Of a stretch of 30,866 bases of DNA, positions 5,237 through 30,866 are shown one piece after another. This DNA is from a virus: the IMG/VR virus record IMGVR_UViG_3300019756_000002, positions 1 to 30,866 of that record. The stretch is one strand, 5' to 3'. The number at the start of each line of letters is the position of its first letter. The stretch's first letter is position 1. The notes under the pieces are model-generated. The model was not told where the DNA came from. It did not search any database and saw only the letters and a program-made list of their open reading frames with translations. The position numbers were made by a program, and so were the translations under genes.

Positions 5237-5698
5237 ATGCCTGTTTTTAACACAGAAAAACCCGTTGGAATGATGCGAGACGGGGATTCATACAATTATT
5301 TAACCAATAAAGGCATTGAGAAGCCGGTATTTAATGAGTTAATATTTAACGATGGAGTCAACTCTGATTTTGAGCGTCCAAGTGCAGGTGTTGCAGAGCC
5401 GTTAAATTTCACTATTTTGCCAAGCGGGCTAGTTTATGTTAGTGGCGCATTTAAAACTAAAAGTGCAACTACTGGAAACGACAAAACTGTAGGGGTGATC
5501 CCACTCAAATATAGGCCTAGACGATTTATGACGTTTCCAGCCATCTCGTTTCTTAACGGCGTGATAACAACGTGGTATATGGTTTATCTTGGAGACGGGA
5601 TTTTAAATGCATTTGTTGCCGGCGCAAATCCTGCCCCGCCGCCTGTCAGCGAAAATGTTTTTTTAGAGGGGATGACCTACATCCCTGTTAAGTTATAA
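5237..5698 (+). CDS. Head-fibre or decoration-like protein, copy 1
   Basis: A 153-residue protein with AGGAGG before ATG. It is clearly paralogous to the next gene. They share an N-terminal signature (VGM-R-DGDSY--LTN) and a core (LNFTILPSGLVY-SG, then a VGxIP--YRPRR motif). The core looks like the beta-sandwich tip domains of phage fibres, where a 'P--YRP' turn is frequent. A free-standing tip-like protein between portal and scaffold suggests a capsid decoration or head-fibre protein. Tail association is possible. There are no enzyme motifs. Confidence 0.8.
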   Translation: MPVFNTEKPVGMMRDGDSYNYLTNKGIEKPVFNELIFNDGVNSDFERPSAGVAEPLNFTILPSGLVYVSGAFKTKSATTGNDKTVGVIPLKYRPRRFMTFPAISFLNGVITTWYMVYLGDGILNAFVAGANPAPPPVSENVFLEGMTYIPVKL

Positions 5699-5715: not shown

Positions 5716-6171
5716 ATGCCAGTTAACAATACAGTAAGATCGGTTGGGATGCTCCGCGATGGAGATTCGTATAGATTTTTGACCAATAGAGAAGTTCAAA
5801 AGCCAATATTTAAAACTCTTGTATTTAATGATTCTGCTGTAAGCTTTGAAGAGCCGTTGGGAAATCAATTAAATTTTACTATACTCCCGTCTGGTCTTGT
5901 ATATATGTCAGGTCTTGTTCAAACATCTCCTTCGCCTACTTCTGGGCTTGAGATTGTAGGAACAATACCAGAGCTATATAGACCAAGAAGAGCATTGGCA
6001 TTAGTTAAATATGGAGTTGCCGCAGGAAATATTCAGCATGCATTTACTGTTTTTATTACCCAAGAAGGCAGCCTTACTATGGGTGTTGATGCAGGAGGAA
6101 CGCCTCCAGTTAGTACTAAAATTGATTTTGAAGGTACTATGTATATACCGTCATATACAAATATAGTATAG
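5716..6171 (+). CDS. Head-fibre or decoration-like protein, copy 2
   Basis: A 151-residue paralogue of the preceding gene, 17 bases downstream, with GAGGA upstream of ATG. It keeps the N-terminal VGMLRDGDSY and the core LNFTILPSGLVYMSG, then TIPELYRPRR. It diverges in the loop and strand region around residues 95-130, which would be surface-exposed in a fibre-tip fold. That pattern, conserved framework with a variable middle, is typical of receptor-binding or decoration proteins. It ends just before the promoter at 6179. Confidence 0.8.
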   Translation: MPVNNTVRSVGMLRDGDSYRFLTNREVQKPIFKTLVFNDSAVSFEEPLGNQLNFTILPSGLVYMSGLVQTSPSPTSGLEIVGTIPELYRPRRALALVKYGVAAGNIQHAFTVFITQEGSLTMGVDAGGTPPVSTKIDFEGTMYIPSYTNIV

Positions 6172-15264: not shown

Positions 15265-17643
15265 ATGGCCGTTAATTTCGATAAACTTGTTCTGTCTCCA
15301 CCAATTCAGCAAAATATTATTGACCCGGTGACTCGTGAACCAACAATTGGGAAGATATTTTTTTTCAAGGCTGGCTGCTTGGGTTGCCCAAAACCTATAT
15401 ATCACCAATCTGGCGACCCGCAAAATCCATTTGTCCCCGCAACTGAGCTTGATTTAGATGGTGCAGGTGCATTGCCATTTGATATATGGTTTTACCCATT
15501 TAATGAAGATGATGAGACAGAAGCTGAGCTATATGATATCCAAGTTATTGCAACGGCAGATAATAGGCTAGTTTTGGAGCGTCTTTCTTGGCCGCCAACG
15601 ACTGAGTTTGACCCAACCCCAGATGAGGTTGGGAATAATCTTAATCTTTGCCCTAACTTTGAATTTCATAGTATGGTTAATGAGGCCATATATAGCATCC
15701 AGCCAATAAAAGTTAAAGAGGTAGTTTTTGCGTGGGGAACGTACACTATCGCCATAGAAAACCCAGCTGCATCAGACATAACCTACTCATCGACATTGCT
15801 CAATGAGGGGAGCGCAACCACGATTGAGCAAACACCACTAAATGTTGTAACATTTAGGGCTACCAATACCGCAGGCGTAAGCGGATTTAGACGAATAAGC
15901 TTCCCCCTTGGGCATTACAATGCGTTTCAAGGTAAGTTTATTTATATATCGCATTTCCTAGCTAATATTAGCAATACGCCAACTTTGACTGTAAAACTTC
16001 AAAGAACGAAAGGAAGTGATAACATTTTTGATTCAACTCCGATAAACATTGGGGTGTTAACAATACCGTCAAATAATCTTGAGAAAGTTGAGACTACGGT
16101 AACCATACCTGACATTACTGAAACTGGATTTAATTTAGATGACAGAGTTTACATTACTCTTGAACCGCCAGAAAATGTTGATTTCCAATTTTCAATGACT
16201 GCTAACTGGTATCAGATTGTCGATGCTGCTGATGCAAAAGGGATTGTGTCAAGATATCCGTTTGGGCTTTCTCTGGCTAATGCTTTTTTTAACACAGGAA
16301 ATTTAAATTGCCCAACACCAGTTCCGTCTAAGATTTATTCGAATAATAAAAACCAAGCCTGCGATGGCATGGCAATTACTCAAAGTGCTGGGTTTGTTCA
16401 ATCGATACATAGAACTGGGATGGTTGAAAGGGTTATGTCGGGTAGTGTTCATCAAGCTAACTGGGGGTTATTGCTTTCACAGTCAGAAGATAATTTGATT
16501 TATGCTAATGAAGTTCCTGTGGATACTGGCGAGACAGTAGTTAAACTTGCTCCATCCAATCGTTTAATATCGGTATTGCGAGATTCAGCCGTCAATAACA
16601 AACATGCATTTTCTGCACATAAAAAAAATTCATCCAGCTTTGAAGTCAGCGTTTTAAATAGCGGGACATTTAAGACCGACTGGGTTGCTAGTAATATAGC
16701 TTCATTGACGCTTACTAAAAATGGTACTGCATTTCCATTTGGACTAGAGGCAATAAAAACTAGCCCAACCACTATGACATTACAGTATGTAAACAATTTT
16801 ACTGTAGTAAATGGGTTTAGTAATCAATACCCATTTAGAGATTTGGAGCCTGGTCAACAAGGATTCCCAATCCCCCCTGTAGCTAACATGGGGAATTGGT
16901 TTGGTCAGGATTATACTGGCGGGGCTGGAAATGCACCACCATACGGAACTGGAGCAATAACATCTACAACAATCCCAGCCGGTGGCGGCAAAGGTGTAGG
17001 GTTAACGCTGACATATACAACTGCAACCTTGGCAAACTATGTTGCCAAATTTAGCAAGTATGCAGTTACTAGTGGTTCTAATGTCACTACATTTACAAGG
17101 TATCATGACTTCATTGAAGTACCTACAGTATCATCAAACATAAGAGCCATTCCATGGGGTGAAAATACAAACACCGGAGGCGTTGTTGGCGTTCCTACAG
17201 CCGGAGCATTTCATATTATTTATTCAGTGAAAACGCCGTCATCTCAATACCTCACTGGAAGAGAAAAAACGCTCATAATTGAAATACCACCATCCGTAAC
17301 AACTAGAGAAGAACTAATAGATCTTACCGTTAACAAACTTAGTGGTACAGAGTCATACACGGTTCAAGTAAATACGCTCCCTACTCACGGTGATTTTGTT
17401 ACATTTTCTAATGATATTTTTGATTATGCCGTTGTGTTTGTTCAGAAAGGTCAGGGGACTCCAAACATTCCGGCTGGAAATTTTGAAAGAACCTTTTTCC
17501 TTGAGTTCCCATCTGGAGAAACAATAGACAGCTTCAACAACAAATTTATTATATTTTTTGATTTTTTATTGCGTGCGCTTCCATCATTATCAGAGCTATC
17601 ATTGCCAAATGATACGCACTCATCATTCATGATTAACTTATAG
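15265..17643 (+). CDS. Tail fibre protein
   Basis: A 792-residue protein with AAGGT before ATG. The N-terminal 110 residues (LSPPIQQNIIDPVTREPTIG, KIFFFKAG..., then FDIWFYPFNEDDETEAELYD) match the virion-anchoring domain found at the start of many podovirus tail fibres and spikes. The rest is beta-rich, with Thr/Asn-rich strands and glycine-rich turns, as expected for a receptor-binding fibre. No endosialidase or lyase motif is visible. The last 80 residues (HGDFVTFSND, ERTFFLEFPSGETIDSFNNK) have a paralogue in the minus-strand gene at 21326-21679. The next gene starts 12 bases after the stop. Confidence 0.85.
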   Translation: MAVNFDKLVLSPPIQQNIIDPVTREPTIGKIFFFKAGCLGCPKPIYHQSGDPQNPFVPATELDLDGAGALPFDIWFYPFNEDDETEAELYDIQVIATADNRLVLERLSWPPTTEFDPTPDEVGNNLNLCPNFEFHSMVNEAIYSIQPIKVKEVVFAWGTYTIAIENPAASDITYSSTLLNEGSATTIEQTPLNVVTFRATNTAGVSGFRRISFPLGHYNAFQGKFIYISHFLANISNTPTLTVKLQRTKGSDNIFDSTPINIGVLTIPSNNLEKVETTVTIPDITETGFNLDDRVYITLEPPENVDFQFSMTANWYQIVDAADAKGIVSRYPFGLSLANAFFNTGNLNCPTPVPSKIYSNNKNQACDGMAITQSAGFVQSIHRTGMVERVMSGSVHQANWGLLLSQSEDNLIYANEVPVDTGETVVKLAPSNRLISVLRDSAVNNKHAFSAHKKNSSSFEVSVLNSGTFKTDWVASNIASLTLTKNGTAFPFGLEAIKTSPTTMTLQYVNNFTVVNGFSNQYPFRDLEPGQQGFPIPPVANMGNWFGQDYTGGAGNAPPYGTGAITSTTIPAGGGKGVGLTLTYTTATLANYVAKFSKYAVTSGSNVTTFTRYHDFIEVPTVSSNIRAIPWGENTNTGGVVGVPTAGAFHIIYSVKTPSSQYLTGREKTLIIEIPPSVTTREELIDLTVNKLSGTESYTVQVNTLPTHGDFVTFSNDIFDYAVVFVQKGQGTPNIPAGNFERTFFLEFPSGETIDSFNNKFIIFFDFLLRALPSLSELSLPNDTHSSFMINL

Positions 17644-17655
17644 GAGTAAAATAAA

Positions 17656-18006
17656 ATGCCAGCTCAACAATTAGTAATCGGCGTATCTGCAAATAACCAA
17701 ATACCAACTTGGTCTTTACCTCTTCCAAAGAAGTCTGGTGAATCAGTTCACTATCTTTCTGCTAGTGAACAAAATGTTTCCATAGATGTTCCGCCTTATG
17801 CAACTGATGCATTAATTGATACTGGCGGTGTAACATACTATGTTAGTGAAGATATTATTGAGCCTCTACCTCTTAATGTCCCTACTGATACAAAGCAAGT
17901 TCAAAATAGACAAATGGTGCAAGTTGCTGGTTTAGCACAAATAAATATTTTGACAGAAGACGCCGCATCAGTAAATATACAGTGGTTTAATAATTCCATA
18001 TTGTAA
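17656..18006 (+). CDS. Hypothetical tail-module protein
   Basis: A 116-residue protein with TAGGAG before ATG. It is probably all-beta, with no membrane segment or cysteine. Residues 19-38 (WSLPLPKKSGESVHYLSA) closely resemble the C-terminal end of the minus-strand gene at 21326-21679 (WLLPPSKKPGESVSYVA), and the leader AGGAGTAAAATAAAATG is the same in both. It is a likely minor tail or fibre-associated component by position. I recognise no family. Confidence 0.75.
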   Translation: MPAQQLVIGVSANNQIPTWSLPLPKKSGESVHYLSASEQNVSIDVPPYATDALIDTGGVTYYVSEDIIEPLPLNVPTDTKQVQNRQMVQVAGLAQINILTEDAASVNIQWFNNSIL

Positions 18007-18024
18007 AAATAAGGTGTTAAGTTA

Positions 18025-18204
18025 ATGTATTATAAAAACAAAAATCAGCTTAAAGGTTACAAGATGTCATTTAATAAATTTTCATCTGGTGACATGTATT
18101 CTCAATTTAAAGAAACTGGTGCACAACCTCAGCCGCCAGAAATATGGGTGGATGAATTTGGAGACCCATGGGTCGATGAATTAGGAAATCAGTGGTTAAC
18201 ATAA
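18025..18204 (+). CDS. Short protein with W-V-D-E repeat
   Basis: A 59-residue gene with AAGGTG nine bases before ATG. It fills the gap between two tail-module genes with 18- and 16-base spacers. Its C-terminus is an eight-residue tandem repeat: WVDEFGDP (41-48), WVDELGNQ (49-56), then W57. Before it is a proline/glutamine stretch (QPQPPE). The good ribosome-binding site and close packing argue that it is real. It could be a short linear adaptor peptide in the tail or a fibre chaperone. Function unknown. Confidence 0.7.
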   Translation: MYYKNKNQLKGYKMSFNKFSSGDMYSQFKETGAQPQPPEIWVDEFGDPWVDELGNQWLT

Positions 18205-18220
18205 AATAAAAGGTGAAAAT

Positions 18221-18766
18221 ATGCCAACAATGACACAAGCAGAAAAAAATAATTACGATTTAATCGTAACGCAGGGACTTAGGAAAGGAAATGAAAGAAG
18301 CGTATCAATAACTGCAGGAGATTTGATACCATCGCTTGGTAATGAGCCTGACAAAATATTTATATCGCCCGGTCAAATTGCTTTTAAATACCCAATTTTC
18401 TCCACTGTATCATGCTCTTACACTCTTCCAATCCCCCCAGATGCAGATTTAAATACATTAAAAATGAATATTCTTTTTTCATATGATTCTGCTACAGCTG
18501 GAGAGACATATAAAATTGGTGTTGATATACAACAGGTAACTGATGGTTCTATAGCTAATCCTGCGTTAACAACAAATGAAATATCGGAAGTCACAATAGA
18601 TACTGGGGGGCAACTTATATTTTTTGAGAAAGTATTGCCTTTTGGCGGGATAAATCCAAATTCAACAGTAACGTTTATAATAAAGCGTCCAACTAGTTCG
18701 CCAACTAGATTTTCAGGAGATATAAATATAGTTGGTATTAATTTTTTATACGACATAGCTCAATAG
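18221..18766 (+). CDS. Beta-rich tail-module protein
   Basis: A 181-residue protein with AAAGGTG before ATG. A short N-terminal helix (MTQAEKNNYDLIVTQGL) precedes alternating strands (KMNILFSYDSATAGETYKIG, then INIVGINFLYDIA at the end), in the manner of a jelly-roll carbohydrate-binding or fibre-tip domain. It lies between tail fibre and lysis genes with the next gene nine bases downstream. It is probably a receptor-binding or fibre-accessory subunit; the name is inference from fold pattern and context. Confidence 0.75.
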   Translation: MPTMTQAEKNNYDLIVTQGLRKGNERSVSITAGDLIPSLGNEPDKIFISPGQIAFKYPIFSTVSCSYTLPIPPDADLNTLKMNILFSYDSATAGETYKIGVDIQQVTDGSIANPALTTNEISEVTIDTGGQLIFFEKVLPFGGINPNSTVTFIIKRPTSSPTRFSGDINIVGINFLYDIAQ

Positions 18767-18775
18767 GAGAAAATA

Positions 18776-19366
18776 ATGTCATTATCATTAAAAAATACCG
18801 TTTCATCTGGTGCAAATACAGTCCAATCTGATTTTAGCCTTAAAGATGCACTTCCTGTTTATGGAAGCTTGGTTTTTCAACCTGTTTTATCGGCAAGCGA
18901 TCCATTTTTTACAACGTCTCTTACTATTCCTCTAGGTTCATTTGCTCAAGGGACATGGGTTAGAGTTTCTGGCCTTTCTGATGGTGATCTAAATGGAATA
19001 ACGACTTCTGGGGATAGCTTAATAGTTGGCACTTCAGGAATATATGAAGTTTCATTAAGCGGAGGTGTCGCCGAGCAAACAGACGGAAATAACAGAACGA
19101 TGGGGTTTAGTTTTTCTGTAAATGACACGGCAACAAATATTCCTCTTGGTTCGTTAGATTTTTATGGGGGAAATTTTGGCATATCAAATGGACGGCCTCT
19201 TCCATTTGACGGGAGTAAAATATTTAGTTTAAATGCGTTTGATAAAATAGGTTTGTATTTTATTGGTGTAAGAGACAGTGGCACAAACCCAGTGGATTTT
19301 ATTGCAAGCTATATTAATTTCTCAATTAAGCGGCTTAATGGTTCTTTTGCACCTAATGAAGTTTAA
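18776..19366 (+). CDS. C1q/TNF-like jelly-roll tail-module protein
   Basis: A 196-residue protein with TAGGAG eight bases before ATG. The order GTWVRVSGL, then GTSGIYEVSLSGGV, then MGFSFSVNDTATN, then IFSLNAFDKIGLYFIG and a final YINFSIKRL follows the strand pattern of C1q/TNF-like trimeric jelly rolls, in which 'G-Y-V' and a 'L-A-D-I-L' turn are characteristic. Phages use such domains as fibre or capsid tips. It is the last morphogenesis gene before the endolysin. Confidence 0.75.
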   Translation: MSLSLKNTVSSGANTVQSDFSLKDALPVYGSLVFQPVLSASDPFFTTSLTIPLGSFAQGTWVRVSGLSDGDLNGITTSGDSLIVGTSGIYEVSLSGGVAEQTDGNNRTMGFSFSVNDTATNIPLGSLDFYGGNFGISNGRPLPFDGSKIFSLNAFDKIGLYFIGVRDSGTNPVDFIASYINFSIKRLNGSFAPNEV

Positions 19367-19394
19367 TAAATAAATATCTGTATTAAATTTAATC

Positions 19395-19781
19395 ATGTTT
19401 AAACTTTCAGAAAATTCTAAATTGCGCCGTGACGGTGTCGACAATCGACTAATAGAAATTAGTAATTTGGCATTGAAAATTTCTACGATTGATTTTGGAC
19501 ACCCTGCCGACGCAGGCATCAGAACAGCTGAGCGGCAAAATGAATTGTTTAAAATGGGAAAATCATTGTGCGACGGTTATAAAATAAAGAGCAAACATCA
19601 AAGTGGAAAAGCTTTGGATTTTTATGCCTATGTCGATGGTAAGGCAAGCTGGAAAATTGAGCATTTAACGTTGGTTGCTGCTGCATTCCTGCAAGCTGCG
19701 TCAGTTTTGAGTTACAAATTGCATTGGGGTGGTTTTTGGAAAACATTCCAAGATTATCCTCATGTTGAACTTGTAGACTAA
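19395..19781 (+). CDS. Endolysin, M15-family (VanY/T5-type) zinc peptidase
   Basis: A 128-residue peptidase predicted to cut the peptide stems of peptidoglycan at lysis. Zinc ligands of the M15 fold are visible: H68 in SKHQSGKALDF, D75 in the same motif, and H123 in YPHVEL near the C-terminus. The substrate-binding arginine motif is GIRTAERQNELF (41-52). Length matches single-domain enzymes such as T5-type L-alanyl-D-glutamate peptidases. There is no signal peptide, so exit needs the holin nearby. The ATG lacks a clear ribosome-binding site. Confidence 0.9.
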   Translation: MFKLSENSKLRRDGVDNRLIEISNLALKISTIDFGHPADAGIRTAERQNELFKMGKSLCDGYKIKSKHQSGKALDFYAYVDGKASWKIEHLTLVAAAFLQAASVLSYKLHWGGFWKTFQDYPHVELVD

Positions 19782-19829
19782 ATTTAGTTATAAATATATA
19801 ATTTAACTTTTAAAAAAATTGGCAACATA

Positions 19830-20261
19830 ATGAACAAATCAGATATAAATAAAAATGTAGCATTAGTAAGCGGCATAATTTCAATATTATTTATTTTAAT
19901 GACTGGAGTAAGTTTTCACGAGAAAACTATGGCTGAACTAGAAGTTCTCAAGTCTCAACAAACAAAAGAAAAGGCTAGAATTAATGGAATTGAGGAAAGA
20001 TCCACTGAAAATTCAACGAACGTTAATGCACTACGTGCGAATTTTCAAGAAAATTCGAGAGCAATAATTACCAATGCTCAGAAAATTTCAAAATTGAAAG
20101 ATGCCAGTTCGCAATATGTTTTGCTTAGTCAGTTTCGCGGGTCGATGGATATAATCCATAAGGACCATCAAGATAGCATAAAATCACGACAGAAAGATAA
20201 TTTACACGTTAGTTCGGAATTTTCAAACGTCTATAGAACAATATTGAATCTTTACAAATGA
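19830..20261 (+). CDS. Membrane-anchored coiled-coil protein in lysis cassette
   Basis: A 143-residue protein with one N-terminal membrane segment (residues about 11-29, ALVSGIISILFILMTGVSF), followed by a long heptad-patterned coil (EKTMAELEVLKSQQTKEKAR, then NVNALRANFQENSRAI). Its place between endolysin and holin suggests a lysis-timing or antiholin-like role, or an envelope-spanning helper. Two spanin-like genes are already present further on, so it is unlikely to be Rz. Its stop overlaps the holin start. Confidence 0.72.
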   Translation: MNKSDINKNVALVSGIISILFILMTGVSFHEKTMAELEVLKSQQTKEKARINGIEERSTENSTNVNALRANFQENSRAIITNAQKISKLKDASSQYVLLSQFRGSMDIIHKDHQDSIKSRQKDNLHVSSEFSNVYRTILNLYK

Positions 20262-20503
20262 TGAAAAACGGTTTTTTAAAAGATGACGACAGTAGAAACA
20301 GTTCGAAAAGATTGTTAGGTTCAACACTGCTATTTACTGCGGCATTCGTCGGTGCAACGATATGCTATTTCGGAATATTCTTTGTTATAAAAGATGCTGA
20401 ATTTATAAAATTTTACATTAATGCTAGCTATTTATCAGGCTCATTTTTACTGGGCGTCGGTATTGCTGAAAAATTTGCACAAAGGAAGAAGCCGAGTGAA
20501 TAA
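20258..20503 (+). CDS. Holin
   Basis: An 81-residue protein; two adjacent ATGs (20258, 20261) are possible starts, both in an overlap with the preceding stop. The N-terminal pattern with SSKRL (KDDDSRNSSKRLLG), followed by two membrane segments (LLFTAAFVGATICYFGIFFV and SYLSGSFLLGVGIAEKF) and a basic tail (AQRKKPSE), is typical of a small holin family found beside endolysins. It should make the lesion that lets the cytoplasmic endolysin reach the wall. The end overlaps the spanin gene by 8 bases. Confidence 0.8.
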   Translation: MMKNGFLKDDDSRNSSKRLLGSTLLFTAAFVGATICYFGIFFVIKDAEFIKFYINASYLSGSFLLGVGIAEKFAQRKKPSE

Positions 20504-20717
20504 AATTAAATTAATAATAGCATCTGTTTCTGCTGCAATATTTTCGTTAGCAGGGGTGTTTTTTTACGGCTTATCAAAAGGCAAGAGAGAGAAAGAATAT
20601 GAGATACTTAAAAAAAATGCAGAAGATGCACTTGAAACTAATAAGCGTGAAGAGGCTCGCAGGAATGACAGCATTGACGATGTTGTTAAGCGGATGCGCG
20701 ACTACACCGATAAATAA
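20496..20717 (+). CDS. Inner-membrane spanin (Rz-type)
   Basis: About 73 residues from GTG 20496, which lies inside the holin stop region (GTGAATAA). This start gives a clean N-terminal membrane anchor (IKLIIASVSAAIFSLAGVFF) after two lysines, followed by a charged periplasmic helix (KGKREKEYEILKKNAEDALE, ending KRMRDYTDK). That is the classic i-spanin design. The next gene is embedded in another frame and encodes a lipoprotein, as in Rz/Rz1 pairs. Confidence 0.82.
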   Translation: MNKIKLIIASVSAAIFSLAGVFFYGLSKGKREKEYEILKKNAEDALETNKREEARRNDSIDDVVKRMRDYTDK

Positions 20718-20850
20718 TTATTGCTTGTGGGGTAAGCCGATAACGCTTACAAAATACCAGCTCAGCCAAATGTATAATGATGAAAGCATGCATAGTTTGC
20801 TAAGGCAAATAGATGGGCAGCAGCAAGAATGGAAAGCGCGTTGCGCGTAA
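20599..20850 (+). CDS. Outer-membrane spanin lipoprotein (Rz1-type), nested in Rz
   Basis: An 83-residue ORF in the frame overlapping the Rz-type gene. The lipobox LLSGC gives cysteine 33 as lipidation site after a basic, hydrophobic signal (KRLAGMTALTML). The mature part begins ATTPINNYCLWGKPITLT and ends in a helix with DGQQQEWKARC, resembling Rz1-like proteins that carry a Cys-Leu-...-Pro-I motif. With Rz it should fuse inner and outer membranes. GAGAGAAAG before 20599 supports that start. Confidence 0.82.
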   Translation: MRYLKKMQKMHLKLISVKRLAGMTALTMLLSGCATTPINNYCLWGKPITLTKYQLSQMYNDESMHSLLRQIDGQQQEWKARCA

Positions 20851-20956
20851 CTTATTTTTTTGATATTATATTTATGCGCATGGCGTAAGCCGCATATTGA
20901 AATGTTTCCCTAAGTTCGTTTTGGTAAGCGGTTTACCCTTTAAACAAAATATAAAC

Positions 20957-21157
20957 ATGAAAAAAACATCGAAAAAAAAATGGATTCAAGATATGGACAT
21001 GGATGAAGGTGCTTTCACTAGGCAGGCAAAAAGGGCTAAAAAAACCGTCGCTCAGTTTCGTGAAGAAGTTCTTGACAACCCCAAAAAATACGCTAAAACA
21101 ACCGTTAAAAGGGCTAATTTAGCCAAAACTTTTAGCAAAATGAAAAAGAAAAAATAA
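20957..21157 (+). CDS. Small basic phage protein
   Basis: A 66-residue protein from ATG 20957. A longer version from TTG 20897 is unlikely because the added residues look non-coding. About a third of the residues are Lys/Arg, with the order KKWIQDMDMDEGAFTRQAK and a final TTVKRANLAKTFSKMKKKK. It resembles a widespread group of short basic phage proteins (K-W-I-Q-x..GA..., then AR-LA-T) found in virion or lysis regions, whose role is unsettled. There is no clear ribosome-binding site. The stretch before it (20851-20956) contains small inverted repeats. Confidence 0.7.
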   Translation: MKKTSKKKWIQDMDMDEGAFTRQAKRAKKTVAQFREEVLDNPKKYAKTTVKRANLAKTFSKMKKKK

Positions 21158-21201
21158 CACACCCGTCACGCCTATTTAAATGCGTAAATTTGGCTGGTAT
21201 T

Positions 21202-21321
21202 TTATTTTGAAATTTTATTCATTAAAAGCTTTACTATCAATATAGTAACCATAACCACAACCCCTGCACACAGCAGTGCAATAAACGCGACACAAATAAA
21301 TGCCAAGAAATTGCGAATCAT
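21202..21321 (-). CDS. Single-span membrane peptide
   Basis: A 39-residue peptide starting four bases after the stop of the upstream minus-strand gene. It is almost entirely one membrane helix (FLAFICVAFIALLCAGVVVM and on to VTILIVKLL) with a short basic C-terminus (NKISK). A longer in-frame extension upstream overlaps the previous gene and adds no plausible sequence. It is the last gene of the minus-strand early operon, facing the lysis genes. Function unknown. Confidence 0.55.
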   Translation of the reverse strand: MIRNFLAFICVAFIALLCAGVVVMVTILIVKLLMNKISK

Positions 21322-21325
21322 AAAA

Positions 21326-21679
21326 TCATCCGCTAAACGCAACATAACTAACTGATTCACCAGGCTTCTTTGATGGAGGCAAAAGCCAAGGATCAAGCGA
21401 TGAATAATCAGAAAACGATTTAAGCATTAAATTTCGCAAATTTTTAGTTTGACGCCGTAACTTTCTGTTGATTCGCTCCCGCTGGTCCAAAAATACATTC
21501 AATTTTTTATTAAAGCTGTCTATTGTTTCTCCAGCTGTTAACTCAAAAAAAAAGGTTCTTTCTAAATCTCCTGATGGCGGTGCTGGTGTCTCTTTCCCTT
21601 TCTGAAAAAAAACAAGATAAAAATCAGAATCATCATCGGAAAATGTAACAAAGTCACCATGGGAAAATGGGAATTGCAT
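21326..21679 (-). CDS. Inverted paralogue of tail-fibre C-terminus fused to next-gene N-terminus
   Basis: A 117-residue protein with AGGAG before ATG. Residues 5-60 (HGDFVTFSDD, ERTFFFEL, AGETIDSFNKK) parallel the end of the tail fibre encoded near 17384-17560. The C-terminal 20 residues (WLLPPSKKPGESVSYVA) parallel residues 19-36 of the protein at 17656. A basic helix (REMINRKL-like: RERINRKLRRQTKNLRNL) joins them. It therefore looks like a compressed, inverted relic or alternative version of a fibre-end locus that keeps its own ribosome-binding site. It may be expressed with RecT as a small virion or accessory protein. Confidence 0.72.
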   Translation of the reverse strand: MQFPFSHGDFVTFSDDDSDFYLVFFQKGKETPAPPSGDLERTFFFELTAGETIDSFNKKLNVFLDQRERINRKLRRQTKNLRNLMLKSFSDYSSLDPWLLPPSKKPGESVSYVAFSG

Positions 21680-21707
21680 TTTATTTTACTCCTAATTTTG
21701 TTAAAAG

Positions 21708-21783
21708 TTAAGGCCACTAGCTTCCCCTTGGGAAACAACAAGGGGAGGAAGCGAGAAAGAGAAACAAAGCTAGTGACCTTAAT
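21708..21783 (-). ncRNA. Long structured hairpin between recT and the fibre paralogue
   Basis: Arms 21708-21723 and 21768-21783 are 16 bases each and pair at 15 of 16 positions (TTAAGGCCACTAGCTT against AAGCTAGTGACCTTAA). Inside, CCCCTTG (21724-21730) pairs with CAAGGGG (21739-21745). About 22 bases on one side stay unpaired. On the minus strand it begins just after the recT stop and is followed by CTTTTAAC, so it may be a leaky terminator, an mRNA stabiliser or a processed RNA. Its type is inferred; the pairing is visible. Confidence 0.6.
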
Positions 21784-21785
21784 TT

Positions 21786-22604
21786 TTAACTTTCTTCTAT
21801 TTCCTCTAATTGAAACTCTATGTATTGATCCCCACCATCTGATGTTCCTTCAATAAAATTTTGAGCATCATTATTTTTTATTTTATTTTTTTCTTCTGAA
21901 AAATCATCTGAAAATATTTCATTAAATTTTTCTTCTAGTTCAATCCCGCTGTTTGATATCCAGCTTTTTGAAGCATATTTTATTACTGTCTTAATGCACA
22001 TTTGGTCGTACCATTTATTCCAAATTGAATGCTCACCTTTATTCATTGATAAAGCTTTGCGTTTTTCTATTTCTGCTAAATCCATAACATGAGTCATAAA
22101 TGATCCATCAGGCATTTTTGCAACGCAATATGCCCCAACTGTTTTTTTCTGACTTCTGCTTGGATTTATGGCGAATATGTCCGCAATATCATGCTCAGGC
22201 ATGTCATACATGCCTTTGTAAATAAAGTGGTCGCCTTCTTTTACGATATCTCCCATGGCATGACGTATGAAGCCATTTTTAACAGCAATTTTTACTAATC
22301 CTTTATAACTTGGATCTAAACATATTTTCCCTTTTCTTGGGACGAGATAAGCATATCCCAATGAAGGATTTAATGAAAGCCCCATGTTCGCAACATTGCA
22401 TAATGCATCTTGAAATCCTTTTACATCATTGCGTATTGCATTTGCTAGATGATGGTTAGATTCGAATGCTTGTCTAGCAAAAGAAGCTTCTTTTGCAAAC
22501 GTCATTTGCCCTGCTGCAGATTTGTCTATTAGAGCATTAAATTTTGGCTCAACAGCCACAATGGCTTTTACAATATTTGTTCCTGTATTCATAATTTGTA
22601 CCAT
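21786..22604 (-). CDS. recT: RecT-family single-strand annealing protein
   Basis: A 272-residue protein that should coat ssDNA and anneal complementary strands in phage recombination. RecT hallmarks are present: an N-terminal region with NAIRNDVKGFQDALCNVANM, then LSLNPSLGYAYLVPRKGKI, then LDPSYKGLVKIAVKNG, followed by HSIWNKWYDQMCIKTVIKYA. The acidic C-terminal tail resembles tails that modulate DNA binding. It overlaps the upstream exonuclease gene by 16 bases, so the pair is coupled. A second ATG four codons later is an alternative start. Confidence 0.95.
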   Translation of the reverse strand: MVQIMNTGTNIVKAIVAVEPKFNALIDKSAAGQMTFAKEASFARQAFESNHHLANAIRNDVKGFQDALCNVANMGLSLNPSLGYAYLVPRKGKICLDPSYKGLVKIAVKNGFIRHAMGDIVKEGDHFIYKGMYDMPEHDIADIFAINPSRSQKKTVGAYCVAKMPDGSFMTHVMDLAEIEKRKALSMNKGEHSIWNKWYDQMCIKTVIKYASKSWISNSGIELEEKFNEIFSDDFSEEKNKIKNNDAQNFIEGTSDGGDQYIEFQLEEIEES

Positions 22605-23434
22605 TTTGGAAGGCCTATTCTAGGCATTCCCTTGTTTATTACGCCACTAAAAATTTGAACGTCAGATATAAAATCCTCTGCATTAATTTTCTCTTTATAT
22701 TTATCAATATTATTTACTGCCAAGTCAATTTCCGACATACCAACCTCTATTGAATCTTCCGGCATTAAGCTGCACACACACTCTGATTCTAAATTGCCAG
22801 ATGGTTCGCTAACAAATATATTGACAAAATATACTTCATCCGTGTCAAGTAATTGCTTTAAGCCATAGGTATATAATGCCGCTTGGATATGGCATCCAAA
22901 TTTTCCTATATACGATTCAATAGAGTCTATATCAAGCACGCCAGATTTTGGGGATATTTTTTTTAAGTCGCAACAAAAGAGCGCGCTTCCGATTCGCTTC
23001 ACGTAATCGAAGCGCGCTTTACAATTTACCCCTTTGTAATCAAATTCAATGCTTGATTCAGCTATGCCATCGCAAAGCAGTTTTTTTGCAAATTTAGATT
23101 TATTAAAAATTGACTCTTTCATCTCGTTGATTTTTTCAAAATCTTTTGAAGAAATCCACTCGACTCCATTGTCAGCACAGCATTGAATTTCATCTTTAGC
23201 TGCTTTCAACCTCTTATCGGGTTGTTCGCTCACAAAAAATTGTTTTTCAAAAAGCTCTGGCTCAAGAACTAAACAATGCAATGCAGAGCCTATCACCATA
23301 GCGTTAGTTTTTTTTATCTCTCCAACATGGTAAGGATGTCTTGCATAATGCTTTATAGCAGTAGAACCAAGAGCTGGTATTTTCAAATACTCATCAAATG
23401 AAATCTTTTTGCATACATCTTTATAGCTTTTCAT
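22589..23434 (-). CDS. RecE-like PD-(D/E)XK exonuclease
   Basis: A 281-residue nuclease, partner of RecT, expected to resect duplex ends 5'-3'. Visible motifs: GSALHCLVLEPELF (49-62, with the family histidine H53), E126, D143 in CKARFDYV, D156 and K158 in CDLKK, and the downstream Q184 of HIQAALY. These are the landmarks of the RecE C-terminal/DUF3799 nuclease domain, with almost nothing added at the N-terminus. It starts 3 bases after the csrA stop. Confidence 0.9.
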   Translation of the reverse strand: MKSYKDVCKKISFDEYLKIPALGSTAIKHYARHPYHVGEIKKTNAMVIGSALHCLVLEPELFEKQFFVSEQPDKRLKAAKDEIQCCADNGVEWISSKDFEKINEMKESIFNKSKFAKKLLCDGIAESSIEFDYKGVNCKARFDYVKRIGSALFCCDLKKISPKSGVLDIDSIESYIGKFGCHIQAALYTYGLKQLLDTDEVYFVNIFVSEPSGNLESECVCSLMPEDSIEVGMSEIDLAVNNIDKYKEKINAEDFISDVQIFSGVINKGMPRIGLPKWYKL

Positions 23435-23437
23435 GTC

Positions 23438-23641
23438 TTACTTGTTCCCATTTAATTCATGATTAACATCAAGCTCAGCATCTTGCCTTGCTTTAACCTC
23501 ATCTCGAAGAATTACAACATCTTTTGGCGCATCGATGCCTACTCGTGCAATACCGCTTTTTTTGCTTATTTCTAAAAATGTAATTACGATGTCGTCGCCA
23601 ATTAATATTTTCTGGCTATCTTTTCTTGTTAGAACTAACAT
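23438..23641 (-). CDS. csrA: CsrA/RsmA-family RNA-binding regulator
   Basis: A 67-residue homologue of the host post-transcriptional regulator that binds GGA motifs in mRNA leaders. The opening MLVLTRK keeps L4 and R6, IGDD follows at 14-17, APKDV at 38-42, and R46 in ILRDE corresponds to the RNA-binding R44 of E. coli CsrA. Compared with E. coli it has a two-residue insertion (KKSG) in the strand 2-3 turn. I chose the second ATG (23641), which matches the family N-terminus and overlaps the previous stop (TAATG). GGGAGG lies about 10 bases upstream. It is encoded in the early operon between an unknown gene and RecE/RecT. Confidence 0.93.
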   Translation of the reverse strand: MLVLTRKDSQKILIGDDIVITFLEISKKSGIARVGIDAPKDVVILRDEVKARQDAELDVNHELNGNK

Positions 23642-23979
23642 TATGCCGCTGCCTCCCATCTGCCGTGATTATAGTACTCAGAAATTTTCCGCTTATAAGC
23701 TTCTATTTGTTTGTAGTAAATCTCGTGCAGTTCATGAGCTATGAAATCATTAACATCATCAAATGCGGCAGTGAAAAGGTTTTCTTTTTTTTGCATCAGG
23801 TCTGCAATGACGTCAGAGTTGTCATTGATAATTCTATAAACATGATCTTCATTTGCTTCTTCAATTAGAACGTTAGATATTGTTTTATAGCTGAACCCAT
23901 TAAGATTGCTTAACATAGCTTGTCTTGCAATAGCCATTGCGGTTTTTGGCATTTTGTCCTCTAGTGAAAATACATTCAT
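23641..23979 (-). CDS. Hypothetical early protein heading the csrA-recET operon
   Basis: A 112-residue soluble protein with AGAGGA about 8 bases before ATG. It is predicted mostly helical (MAIARQAMLSNLNGFSYKTI, then FIAHELHEIYYKQIEAYKRK), acidic in the middle, with no cysteine pairs or membrane segments. It is the first gene after the operator-bearing promoter at 24015-24043 and is coupled to csrA by a TAATG overlap. I recognise no family. Candidates would be a nuclease inhibitor or regulator, but nothing supports one over another. Confidence 0.8.
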   Translation of the reverse strand: MNVFSLEDKMPKTAMAIARQAMLSNLNGFSYKTISNVLIEEANEDHVYRIINDNSDVIADLMQKKENLFTAAFDDVNDFIAHELHEIYYKQIEAYKRKISEYYNHGRWEAAA

Positions 23980-25531: not shown

Positions 25532-25894
25532 ATGTCCTCTGTTGCTTCTGAAAATTTTAAAGAGTTTGATATACAGTGTATATATAAGCAGTGGTTTGAT
25601 ATTCAATATCCGCTGTGTCTTATGTGGCATACTCCGAATGGTGGTTACAGACGTAAATTCGAAGGCTTAAGGCTAAAAAGAAGTGGGGTTGTTGCTGGAG
25701 TCCCAGATATATTTGTGGCTGAACCAAAAGGTGAGAAAAGCGGTCTTTTTATTGAGTTAAAGACAAAAAAAGGGAAACCAACAAAATCACAACAATCAAT
25801 GCTTGATGCGTTAAATAGCCGTGGATACAAGGCTGTTGTTTGTCATTCTATAGATGAGGCAATGGGTGAAACAAAAAAATATCTTGACTCTTAA
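25532..25894 (+). CDS. VRR-NUC domain nuclease
   Basis: A 120-residue single-domain nuclease of the VRR-NUC branch of the PD-(D/E)XK superfamily. Catalytic pattern: D59 in AGVPDIFV, E75-x-K77 in GLFIELKTKKG, then Q87 in KPTKSQ. The HTPNGGYR motif (33-40) is also typical of phage stand-alone VRR-NUC proteins, some of which act on flap or branched DNA, including Holliday-junction-like substrates. Placed after the replication gene, it may process replication or recombination intermediates before packaging. The start has no ribosome-binding site. A terminator lies about 50 bases after the stop. Confidence 0.9.
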   Translation: MSSVASENFKEFDIQCIYKQWFDIQYPLCLMWHTPNGGYRRKFEGLRLKRSGVVAGVPDIFVAEPKGEKSGLFIELKTKKGKPTKSQQSMLDALNSRGYKAVVCHSIDEAMGETKKYLDS

Positions 25895-26248: not shown

Positions 26249-26890
26249 TTATTTTGCATTATACTGCGATAGCCCTTTCAATATTACTCCGTATAGTTCT
26301 ATTTCAGATTTACTGTAACGATGTTTTCTACCTAACTTTTCATAGCTTTCTATCCAATCATCTATTTCCATTCCTTCACATCCTATTTGACAATATCTGT
26401 TATGAGGAGTATAGAATCCAAATCCTTTCCCAAGGGAAAAATACATTATTCCCTTTGTGTCTTTAAATGTTGCTGTTGATAGTCTTGCGCCTCTTAAATC
26501 AGCTCCAGTTAAGTCAGCTCCACTTAAATCAGCTAAATGAAAATTTGCTTTGCTTAGATTTGCATATCTAAGATTAGCATGCCATAAATGAGAGCCCCAT
26601 AAATCAGCTCCCGATAAATTAGCTCTTCTTAAATTAGCGTAGATTAAATTTGTTGAAAATAAATCAGCCCCATCAAGATTGCAATTTGATAAATCAGCAT
26701 TTTTTAACCTTGCATGCTTTAAATTAGACCCTGTTAAATTTGCATATTTTAAATTTACACAACTTAGGTATGAGTTATTAAGATCATATCCGCTTAATAA
26801 TGCTTGTTTTCCTGATTTCCTGTTTGATTCAAGCCATTTTTCATGTGAAATAAGTATTTTACTTAGTTTATTTAATGGTATTTTTTTCAT
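26249..26890 (-). CDS. Pentapeptide-repeat protein A
   Basis: A 213-residue protein. An N-terminal cap (SHEKWLESNRKSGKQALLSG) leads into about twenty A(D/N)Lxx units between residues 35 and 145 (NLKYANLTGSNLKHARLKNA, NLSGADLWGS, ADLTGADLRGA), predicted to form a right-handed four-sided beta helix. The C-terminal 65 residues form a separate conserved domain (GFYTPHNRYCQIGCE, then IDDWIESYEKLG and YSKSEIELYG). Some pentapeptide proteins mimic DNA and act on gyrase; whether this one does cannot be seen. It overlaps its paralogue by 23 bases. Confidence 0.92.
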   Translation of the reverse strand: MKKIPLNKLSKILISHEKWLESNRKSGKQALLSGYDLNNSYLSCVNLKYANLTGSNLKHARLKNADLSNCNLDGADLFSTNLIYANLRRANLSGADLWGSHLWHANLRYANLSKANFHLADLSGADLTGADLRGARLSTATFKDTKGIMYFSLGKGFGFYTPHNRYCQIGCEGMEIDDWIESYEKLGRKHRYSKSEIELYGVILKGLSQYNAK

Positions 26891-27434
26891 TTTCCACTCG
26901 CCATGGTTTATGTTTAGATAATGCTTTTAATATTTTGCCGTATAATTTTATTTCAAATTTGCTGTAGTCATAATATTTTCCTATTTCTTTATAACGCTTA
27001 ACCCATTTGTCTATTCTCATGTATTCACATCCTATCTGGCAATACCTGTTGTGTGGGGTGTAAAACCCAGAGTGATTGCCGAGAAAAAAACACAAAATCC
27101 CTTTTGTGTGATGAAATTTTGCCCCCCTTAAATCAGCCCCCCTTAAATTAACACCAGTTAAATTAGCAAAACTTAGGTCAGCATTGCTTAAATTTGCATA
27201 ACTTAAATCAGTTCCTTTCAAGTCAGCATAAGACAAATTGGAATTTGATAAATCAGAGAAATTTAATTTTACATTTATTACGTCTGCATATCTCAAATCA
27301 ACCCCTTTTAAGTTAGCAGAATTTAAATCATATTTGTTTAAATTTACGCAAGATCCTAACTTTTCATTTTCATCAAGCCATTTTGTATGTAGCTCTATTA
27401 TTGCGTCTAGTTTTTCTTGTGTTATTTTTATCAT
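26868..27434 (-). CDS. Pentapeptide-repeat protein B
   Basis: A 188-residue paralogue of the next gene in the operon: the same N-cap (IELHTKWLDENEKLGSCVNL), about sixteen repeats (NLSYADLKGTDLSYANLSNA, NLRGADLRGAKF) and the same C-terminal domain (GFYTPHNRYCQIGCE, IDKWVKRYKEIG, YSKFEIKLYG). The C-terminal domain is conserved better than the repeats, so it probably has a specific partner or activity. It starts in an ATGA overlap with the preceding gene and has AAGGA upstream. The regular 15-base DNA periodicity is a consequence of the protein repeats. Confidence 0.92.
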   Translation of the reverse strand: MIKITQEKLDAIIELHTKWLDENEKLGSCVNLNKYDLNSANLKGVDLRYADVINVKLNFSDLSNSNLSYADLKGTDLSYANLSNADLSFANLTGVNLRGADLRGAKFHHTKGILCFFLGNHSGFYTPHNRYCQIGCEYMRIDKWVKRYKEIGKYYDYSKFEIKLYGKILKALSKHKPWRVENEKNTIK

Positions 27435-30015: not shown

Positions 30016-30465
30016 ATGTTTGATCGCGCAGATTCAGAATACCATAAGTTACCGTTTGTGACTGATGTTGTACTGAGTAGGCGCAAATTTGCAAAATCAT
30101 TAATCGACCACCACCATTGGTTAGTTGGCAAAGGTGGTGCTAAGGCTAGTTTTAAAGGTGAATACATCAGAAGTTTTCCCAGGGTTGTTAATAATTTGTC
30201 AGGTATTGACTTTAGAGATGCGTACATGAAGGATTTATGTTGGAAGTCTATAATTATGCTTTATTCTGATTTGCGTGGCGCGTACATTGTAGATTGTGAC
30301 CTAAGCAGAACTGATTTTAGTTTTTCAAAAATGTGTGGTGCATATTTCAGGAATTGCAATTTAGATTATGCTAATTTTAGGGGTTGCGATATAAGATGCA
30401 CCACGTTTGTTGGTATCGATATGACATTCACAAAACTAGAAAGGGAATATAAAAATGATTCCTGA
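30016..30465 (+). CDS. Pentapeptide-repeat protein C
   Basis: A 149-residue protein with AAGG before ATG. It shares the N-terminal cap style of proteins A and B (SLIDHHHWLVGKGGAKASFK) and has about a dozen repeats between residues 65 and 140 (GIDFRDAYMKDLCWKS, DLRGAYIVDCDLSRTDFSFS, NCNLDYANFRGCDI). It lacks their C-terminal domain. Repeats are F- and C-rich. It overlaps the next gene by 11 bases and is the first well-supported gene after the operator-bearing promoter. Confidence 0.85.
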   Translation: MFDRADSEYHKLPFVTDVVLSRRKFAKSLIDHHHWLVGKGGAKASFKGEYIRSFPRVVNNLSGIDFRDAYMKDLCWKSIIMLYSDLRGAYIVDCDLSRTDFSFSKMCGAYFRNCNLDYANFRGCDIRCTTFVGIDMTFTKLEREYKNDS

Positions 30466-30866
30466 AAAAAACTGCTATGAAATACAATATAGAACAAACG
30501 ACAGAGAGGCTGATGAAAAAGATATGATTGAGTTAAATAATGATTTTTCTGGGGGAATACTTGAAAAGCGCCGGCTAGATTTTTGCCGAGACGACGGGCA
30601 AATTTCCCGTATTTTTATACATTTTAATTACGTACGGGCTGAGTTGCGTCACAAAACAGTTTGCTTAGGTGAATTAAATATTTTAAATAGAGTTTATAGA
30701 GAGGATTTCAGGGGGATTTTTATCTGTTGTGAAAATTCAATATCAGCCGATTTTATTGGTAATATTTGTGCAATTGAGGAGGTTTGCAATAAAATCAACA
30801 TAGACAAGGCTGACGCATCTGGCGTTTTAAATTATTTATTTGATTGCGATTATGTAAACGAGTTAA
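30455..30866 (+). CDS. 5' part of junction-spanning hypothetical protein
   Basis: It begins at ATG 30455, with GGGAA upstream, inside the end of pentapeptide gene C, and runs off the window. The frame continues at base 1 when the 123-base overlap is collapsed, ending at 242. The N-terminal half is charged (YRTNDREADEKDMIELNNDF), followed by strands (RIFIHFNYVRAELRHKTVCL). No family recognised. See the other part at 1-242 for its likely paralogue. Confidence 0.85.
   Translation, partial: MIPEKNCYEIQYRTNDREADEKDMIELNNDFSGGILEKRRLDFCRDDGQISRIFIHFNYVRAELRHKTVCLGELNILNRVYREDFRGIFICCENSISADFIGNICAIEEVCNKINIDKADASGVLNYLFDCDYVNEL
30744..30866. repeat. Terminal direct repeat, right copy (assembly overlap)
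   Basis: Identical to bases 1-123. It shows that the contig closes on itself. One copy is redundant, and the circular genome is 30743 bp. Confidence 0.95.

Follow-up and report, generated by a model that had tools for sequence, protein, structure and literature searches.

The locus described here raises the question of why a short open reading frame beside the recT gene of a small phage resembles, in reverse orientation, the end of that phage's own tail fibre gene. The window, by which we mean the whole stretch of DNA analysed, is a virus record 30,866 bases long that begins and ends with the same 123 bases (1–123 and 30744–30866), so that it probably represents a small, apparently complete genome of about 30.74 kb that is either circular or terminally redundant. 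Pfam and PHROGs matches in it identify a terminase, a portal protein (phrog_156), the head-closure protein Hc3, an M15 endolysin, RecT and an exonuclease VIII-like protein, and the matches of Hc3 to annotated packaged-DNA stabilization proteins suggest that the phage is a P22-like podophage. None of 50,697 phage records matches the 7.6 kb region from 15.0 to 22.6 kb at the DNA level, indicating that the phage is far from characterised phages. Its terminase has only distant kin (L004 and L005), and its portal protein has no relative among the viral contigs searched. The head genes match those of L006 (61–63% identical in three proteins), a 5.4-kb fragment that lacks the fibre region, and also have relatives in L007 (29%) and L027. 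Between the portal and scaffold genes lie tandem paralogues (5237–5698 and 5716–6171) that are 46% identical, and L006 likewise carries two tandem genes of that kind (at 76–915). Elsewhere, the gene at 25532–25894 (+) encodes a VRR-NUC nuclease domain protein (PF08774, E 1e-9), and pentapeptide-repeat-like proteins are encoded at 26249–26890 (-), 26868–27434 (-) and 30016–30465 (+), the last of these by Pfam match and the first two by a 15-bp DNA periodicity and repeats common to L021 and L024.

The short open reading frame, here called q, and the features that bear on its origin are as follows.

15265–17643, plus strand: tail fibre gene (792 aa), which stops 26 residues past its last module
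17386–17561, plus strand: source-type block, the final fibre module (fibre residues 708–766)
17656–18006, plus strand: gene 17656, directly after the fibre, encoding a 116-aa protein
17562–21485, no strand assigned: segment between the arms, with small tail genes, the M15 endolysin and other late genes
21326–21679, minus strand: q, 117 aa with an ATG start, composed of a fibre-end module, a basic helical linker and an N-terminal scrap of the 17656 type
21486–21661, minus strand: fibre-module block of q, 134/176 bases identical to 17386–17561 with no gaps
21341–21390, minus strand: block of q that matches gene 17656, 39/50 bases identical to 17708–17757
21786–22604, minus strand: RecT-family annealing protein (PF03837, E 4e-27; phrog_148)
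22589–23434, minus strand: exonuclease VIII-like partner of RecT (PF12684; phrog_412)

Also on this early strand, the gene at 23438–23659 (-) encodes a CsrA-family regulator (PF02599, E 6e-19).

Both ends of q have a recognisable counterpart at the fibre locus. Residues 6–65 of q are identical to fibre residues 707–766 at 36 of 60 positions (BLASTP E 2e-22), with a score of 193 that none of 1000 shuffles reached (their maximum was 62), and at the DNA level 17386–17561 and the inverted 21486–21661 are 76% identical (E 6e-34 in a two-sequence comparison). The longest run of identity is a 22-bp block at 17513–17534 that contains GAAACAATAGACAGCTT, one of the short identical blocks noted previously; an identical block of such length is mildly unexpected (P 0.047 under shuffling of codon columns). 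Residues 93–116 of q match residues 14–37 of the 17656 protein at 11 of 24 positions (E 5e-5), a score reached by no shuffle of the q tail and by one shuffle of whole q in 1000 each, and the shared bases fall in codons 18–34 of gene 17656. The two pieces lie in one frame; the linker between them has no homology to the corresponding main-locus stretch (547 of 1000 shuffles were as good), and a search of the whole record found q and its two partner blocks only. The preliminary description had reported both matches in a single frame, and this holds, with alignment statistics far above random, except that the second match begins at residue 14 of the 17656 protein and not at its start. The alternative that unrelated short proteins are alike here by chance or convergence, to which we assign a negligible probability, is ruled out by 76% DNA identity over 176 bp at such an E value and by the shuffles. 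By these alignments q is a real, inverted and diverged partial copy of the junction between the fibre end and the next gene.

The copy extends to the translation start signals, which are these.

17641–17659, plus strand: leader of gene 17656, with the same letters as that of q
21676–21694, minus strand: leader and ribosome-binding site of q, TAGGAGTAAAATAAAATGC, identical to 17641–17659 at 19 of 19 bases

When the 15 bases before the start codon were compared among 36 starts (630 pairs), this pair agreed at 15 of 15 and the other 629 at no more than 12, so the leader has been copied, converted or held by selection; its identity in spite of the divergence of the genes is what one would predict for a start site that is used. 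The shared leader had been assigned to the fibre, and it belongs to gene 17656. It precedes the fibre piece in q and lies between the fibre and 17656 pieces in the main locus, which means that q is permuted and not simply colinear, a point on which the order described earlier has to be amended. The order found in q would result from a tandem duplication and a subsequent deletion. The most economical route that we can infer would have three steps: a short tandem duplication would join the 17656 leader to an extra copy of the terminal fibre module, a deletion would then fuse that module to codon 14 onward of a 17656-type gene, and the fused piece would finally be inserted in reverse beside recT by phage recombination. 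We count the position of q next to exo and recT in favour of a recombinational origin, by analogy with Red/RecT-type systems, which join diverged sequences in the experiments described in PMC2327257 and PMC3945230.

Whether q is still a gene is a closer question. The reading we favour, at about even confidence, is that q is a captured, inverted fragment of the fibre end and next gene that has become a small open gene of its own on the exo-recT strand. Its main and close rival, to which we give a somewhat smaller though still substantial weight, is that a fibre-end fragment of this or a related phage was reversed into the space between the late operon and the recT terminator, where it lies unexpressed and decaying, its divergence having mostly accrued earlier, when it still belonged to a functioning foreign fibre. 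The fibre-module block of q has dN 0.23 and dS 0.66 (ratio 0.35), its mismatches fall 15, 8 and 22 on the three codon positions, and there is no indel in its 176 bp; the frame is open through all 117 codons, and q's own frame has the best codon-usage score of the six. The open frame that joins both pieces, the identical leader and the indel-free, codon-biased module all argue against a dead relic. The truncated, permuted, hybrid structure of q argues for one, as does the rest of its sequence, since the linker has no codon-position bias (score -0.04) and the 17656 block differs by 12, 7 and 9 over 24 codons with no coding-like pattern. The module thus looks kept and the tail looks drifting. In simulations of a neutral q branch of at least 0.2 substitutions per site, no more than 14% of runs ended with no stop and at most eight second-position changes, and no more than 0.4% did so when an assumed indel rate was included; neutral drift of that length is disfavoured, but shorter neutral spans are not. 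The constraint could also predate capture, having built up in the fibre of another phage. On balance it is likely that the module is retained as a translated protein, while the linker and tail look relic-like. The earlier proposal of a rearrangement relic stands as regards a rearranged, inverted partial copy, and for the module the evidence leans to retained rather than dead.

The surroundings of q on its own strand include two further features.

21700–21790, no strand assigned: long nested hairpin of 91 bases that separates recT from q and overlaps the stop codon of recT; its outer arms exceed 20 bp
21202–21321, minus strand: possible 39-aa membrane ORF that starts 4 nt after the q stop (peak hydropathy 3.0)

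The hairpin has a predicted stability of -41.3 kcal/mol on the plus strand and -40.7 on the minus strand (z -5.8 and -4.9), equalled by none of 200 shuffles on either strand, and probably serves as a terminator in both directions. Neither the Rfam scan nor the tRNA scan gave a match. With so strong a hairpin between recT and q, expression of q from the exo-recT operon needs read-through, and this position beyond the hairpin on its own strand is a further point for the relic. The codon score of the 39-aa ORF (-0.135) does not favour coding. The late strand may run as far as the hairpin, and late read-through transcripts would then bear q antisense, able to pair with the fibre message, for which 141 of the 176 positions could pair if G-U is included; such pairing is automatic for any inverted copy and leaves the coding constraint on the module unexplained, and we consider an RNA role of this sort very improbable.

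An AlphaFold2 model of q (25 rows) has a mean pLDDT of 83, with strands at residues 10–14, 19–26 and 42–47 and a helix at 53–92. Residues 11–70 reach about 88–94 and the low-confidence part is the 17656-derived tail, so the module is modelled with confidence as beta-beta-beta-helix. The copy in q starts at the first strand of the module and retains the helix, which has a net charge of +8 in q versus 0 in the fibre. The model of the fibre end is poor overall (pLDDT 62.6). Foldseek gave no PDB or BFVD match at E ≤0.001 for either model (the top BFVD row for both was a baseplate J-like phage protein, E 0.22 and 0.035), and a VIA structure comparison with the PDB was uninformative (best Z 3.2). 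The putative function that we consider most likely is that q would act as a free fibre module, binding or capping either the end of the fibre or a partner in the tail. A more specific version, that the fibre's own terminal module is run as a separate early-strand gene whose predicted free product binds the fibre end or a partner and controls assembly or adsorption, we hold to be rather unlikely; under it, the long basic helix might perhaps be coupled to the 39-aa membrane peptide.

The preliminary description also suggested that q is a parked receptor-binding cassette. Invertible tail-fibre ends are a feature of the Mu G segment, with Gin, and of the P1 C segment, with Cin. The present locus is like them in having alternative fibre-end sequence in inverted orientation, but segments of the Gin/Cin type have an invertase nearby and contain only fibre ends and their companions, whereas no site-specific recombinase or invertase was found here among the window proteins scanned (20 with Pfam and 20 with PHROGs), the arms are diverged, and they enclose lysis and other late genes. 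A diversity-generating retroelement would need a reverse transcriptase together with near-identical template and variable repeats, and the Pfam and PHROGs matches listed include no reverse transcriptase. That the inverted pair flanks tail and lysis genes was correctly noted: nine ORFs, among them small tail genes and the M15 endolysin, lie between the arms, and the late genes so enclosed span 17656–20850. A simple inversion would therefore remove them from the late operon.

RecT-mediated inversion or, more plausibly, conversion could still move the q module into the fibre and so vary the fibre end. In principle RecT-type annealing could act on diverged inverted copies, and q might convert the fibre end, by analogy with other phages: PMC2327257 describes how lambda Red inverted the DNA flanked by copies of about 800 bp that were 22% diverged, and PMC3945230 reports that deleting the RecT of phage phi80 had a pronounced effect on exchange between more diverged sequences. 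Such homeologous Red/RecT recombination is a source of phage mosaics (PMC2327257, PMC3945230), and here likewise exo and recT adjoin a diverged duplicate, though exchange between the copies is demonstrated by experiment there and nothing at our locus points to it. The inverted arms with their 22-bp identical block and the adjacent exo-recT pair thus speak for a parked donor. Against it, there is a single donor, the arms measure only 176 bp and differ by 24%, and in PMC3945230 phi80 gave no detectable recombinants when identity was 67% over 500 bp; in addition, inversion would put the endolysin and other late genes in the opposite orientation, q has no tip domain, and the scanned proteins include no invertase. 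We therefore consider a parked donor improbable, and the cassette claim is not upheld.

What q carries from the fibre is probably a single tandem fibre module, about 70 residues in length. The phage contig L007, from a Paraglaciecola MAG, matches five window proteins at 22–30%; its fibre is 30% identical to the N-terminus of the window fibre over 125 aa and terminates in two modules that are collinear with the window fibre end (weakly, E 0.035). This alignment, together with eight tandem module pairs, points weakly to one more module in the window fibre.

17176–17382, plus strand: probable preceding, more diverged module copy in the fibre (approximate bounds)

A pattern search with the L007 motif found 17 viral contigs (IMG/VR), and a profile gathered 26 module copies in long fibre-like proteins once near-identical contigs had been dropped; the alignment of the tandem module is here called A6. 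These better-preserved copies come from podophage fibres of the IMG/VR contigs and the Paraglaciecola-MAG phage, and their consensus is roughly YYVWYxxDGxGTDPxxxGxTGIxVxxxSTDTAxxVAxKTxxAIN. We found no Pfam name for the module, no PHROGs family was matched by more than one of 16 members, and PDB sequence matches were weak, mostly to antibody light chains, and were taken as chance. Among 44 window rows the fibre and q ranked first and second with a first HMMER profile (E 0.11 and 0.43), first and third with a second (E 0.39 and 0.69), and first and second singly in hhalign; the fibre and q pair aligned to the family with a score of 22.8 and a probability of 47%, equalled by 1 of 200 column shuffles. 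A six-frame search of the window with A6 returned nothing at E 10. Neither q nor the window fibre has the YVWYxxDGxGTDP core, q having FYLVFFQKGKETP and the window fibre YAVVFVQKGQGTP at that place, but they share with A6 the length of about 70 aa, in alignment the G-D-F/Y-F start and GxGT-like turn, and, for the window fibre block, the C-terminal place in the fibre. The link of q and the window fibre to this family is therefore probable, but it is only suggestive, which counts against the reading of q that we favour.

When A6 was compared with 19 whole records, 17 matched, and the clear copies were all in ORFs of at least 280 aa; q, by contrast, is a free 117-aa protein. Weak partial matches were found in 136-aa ORFs of four near-identical records, and G101 has one stop-ridden match. 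There is thus no clear second orphan module in this search, which was not exhaustive. Several module-bearing fibres run on into a tail with endings such as ESRPxNxYVNYVIKY. The tail that ends most full-length module fibres (often ...RPxN...) is missing from the window fibre and from q, so q stores no fibre tip of that kind. In several relatives the gene after the fibre often encodes a protein of 100–130 aa, as does gene 17656. At 18025–18204 (+) the window encodes a 59-aa protein with a terminal WVDEFGDPWVDELGNQW repeat, and in some relatives short LLEDG/TEDG-repeat proteins are encoded soon after the fibre.

Relatives of q itself were found neither in phage records (tblastn at E 10) nor in the viral and genome contigs searched, which also counts for the relic. 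The fibre protein has no match in phage records at E 0.1. The L007 modules have none there either, and among 94 genomes from the class of the L007 genome they matched that genome only. A literature search of titles and abstract starts, which was not exhaustive, yielded no account of this arrangement that we recognised.

The locus is a clear case in which a copy of a fibre-end module has been turned round and re-wired next to the recombination genes of the phage itself, and the A6 alignment may aid annotation of podophage fibres that are otherwise unnamed. If q is expressed, as in the small-gene reading that we favour, it shows how fibre modules can turn into free-standing phage genes; otherwise it is a scar left by the recombination through which fibres are reshaped.
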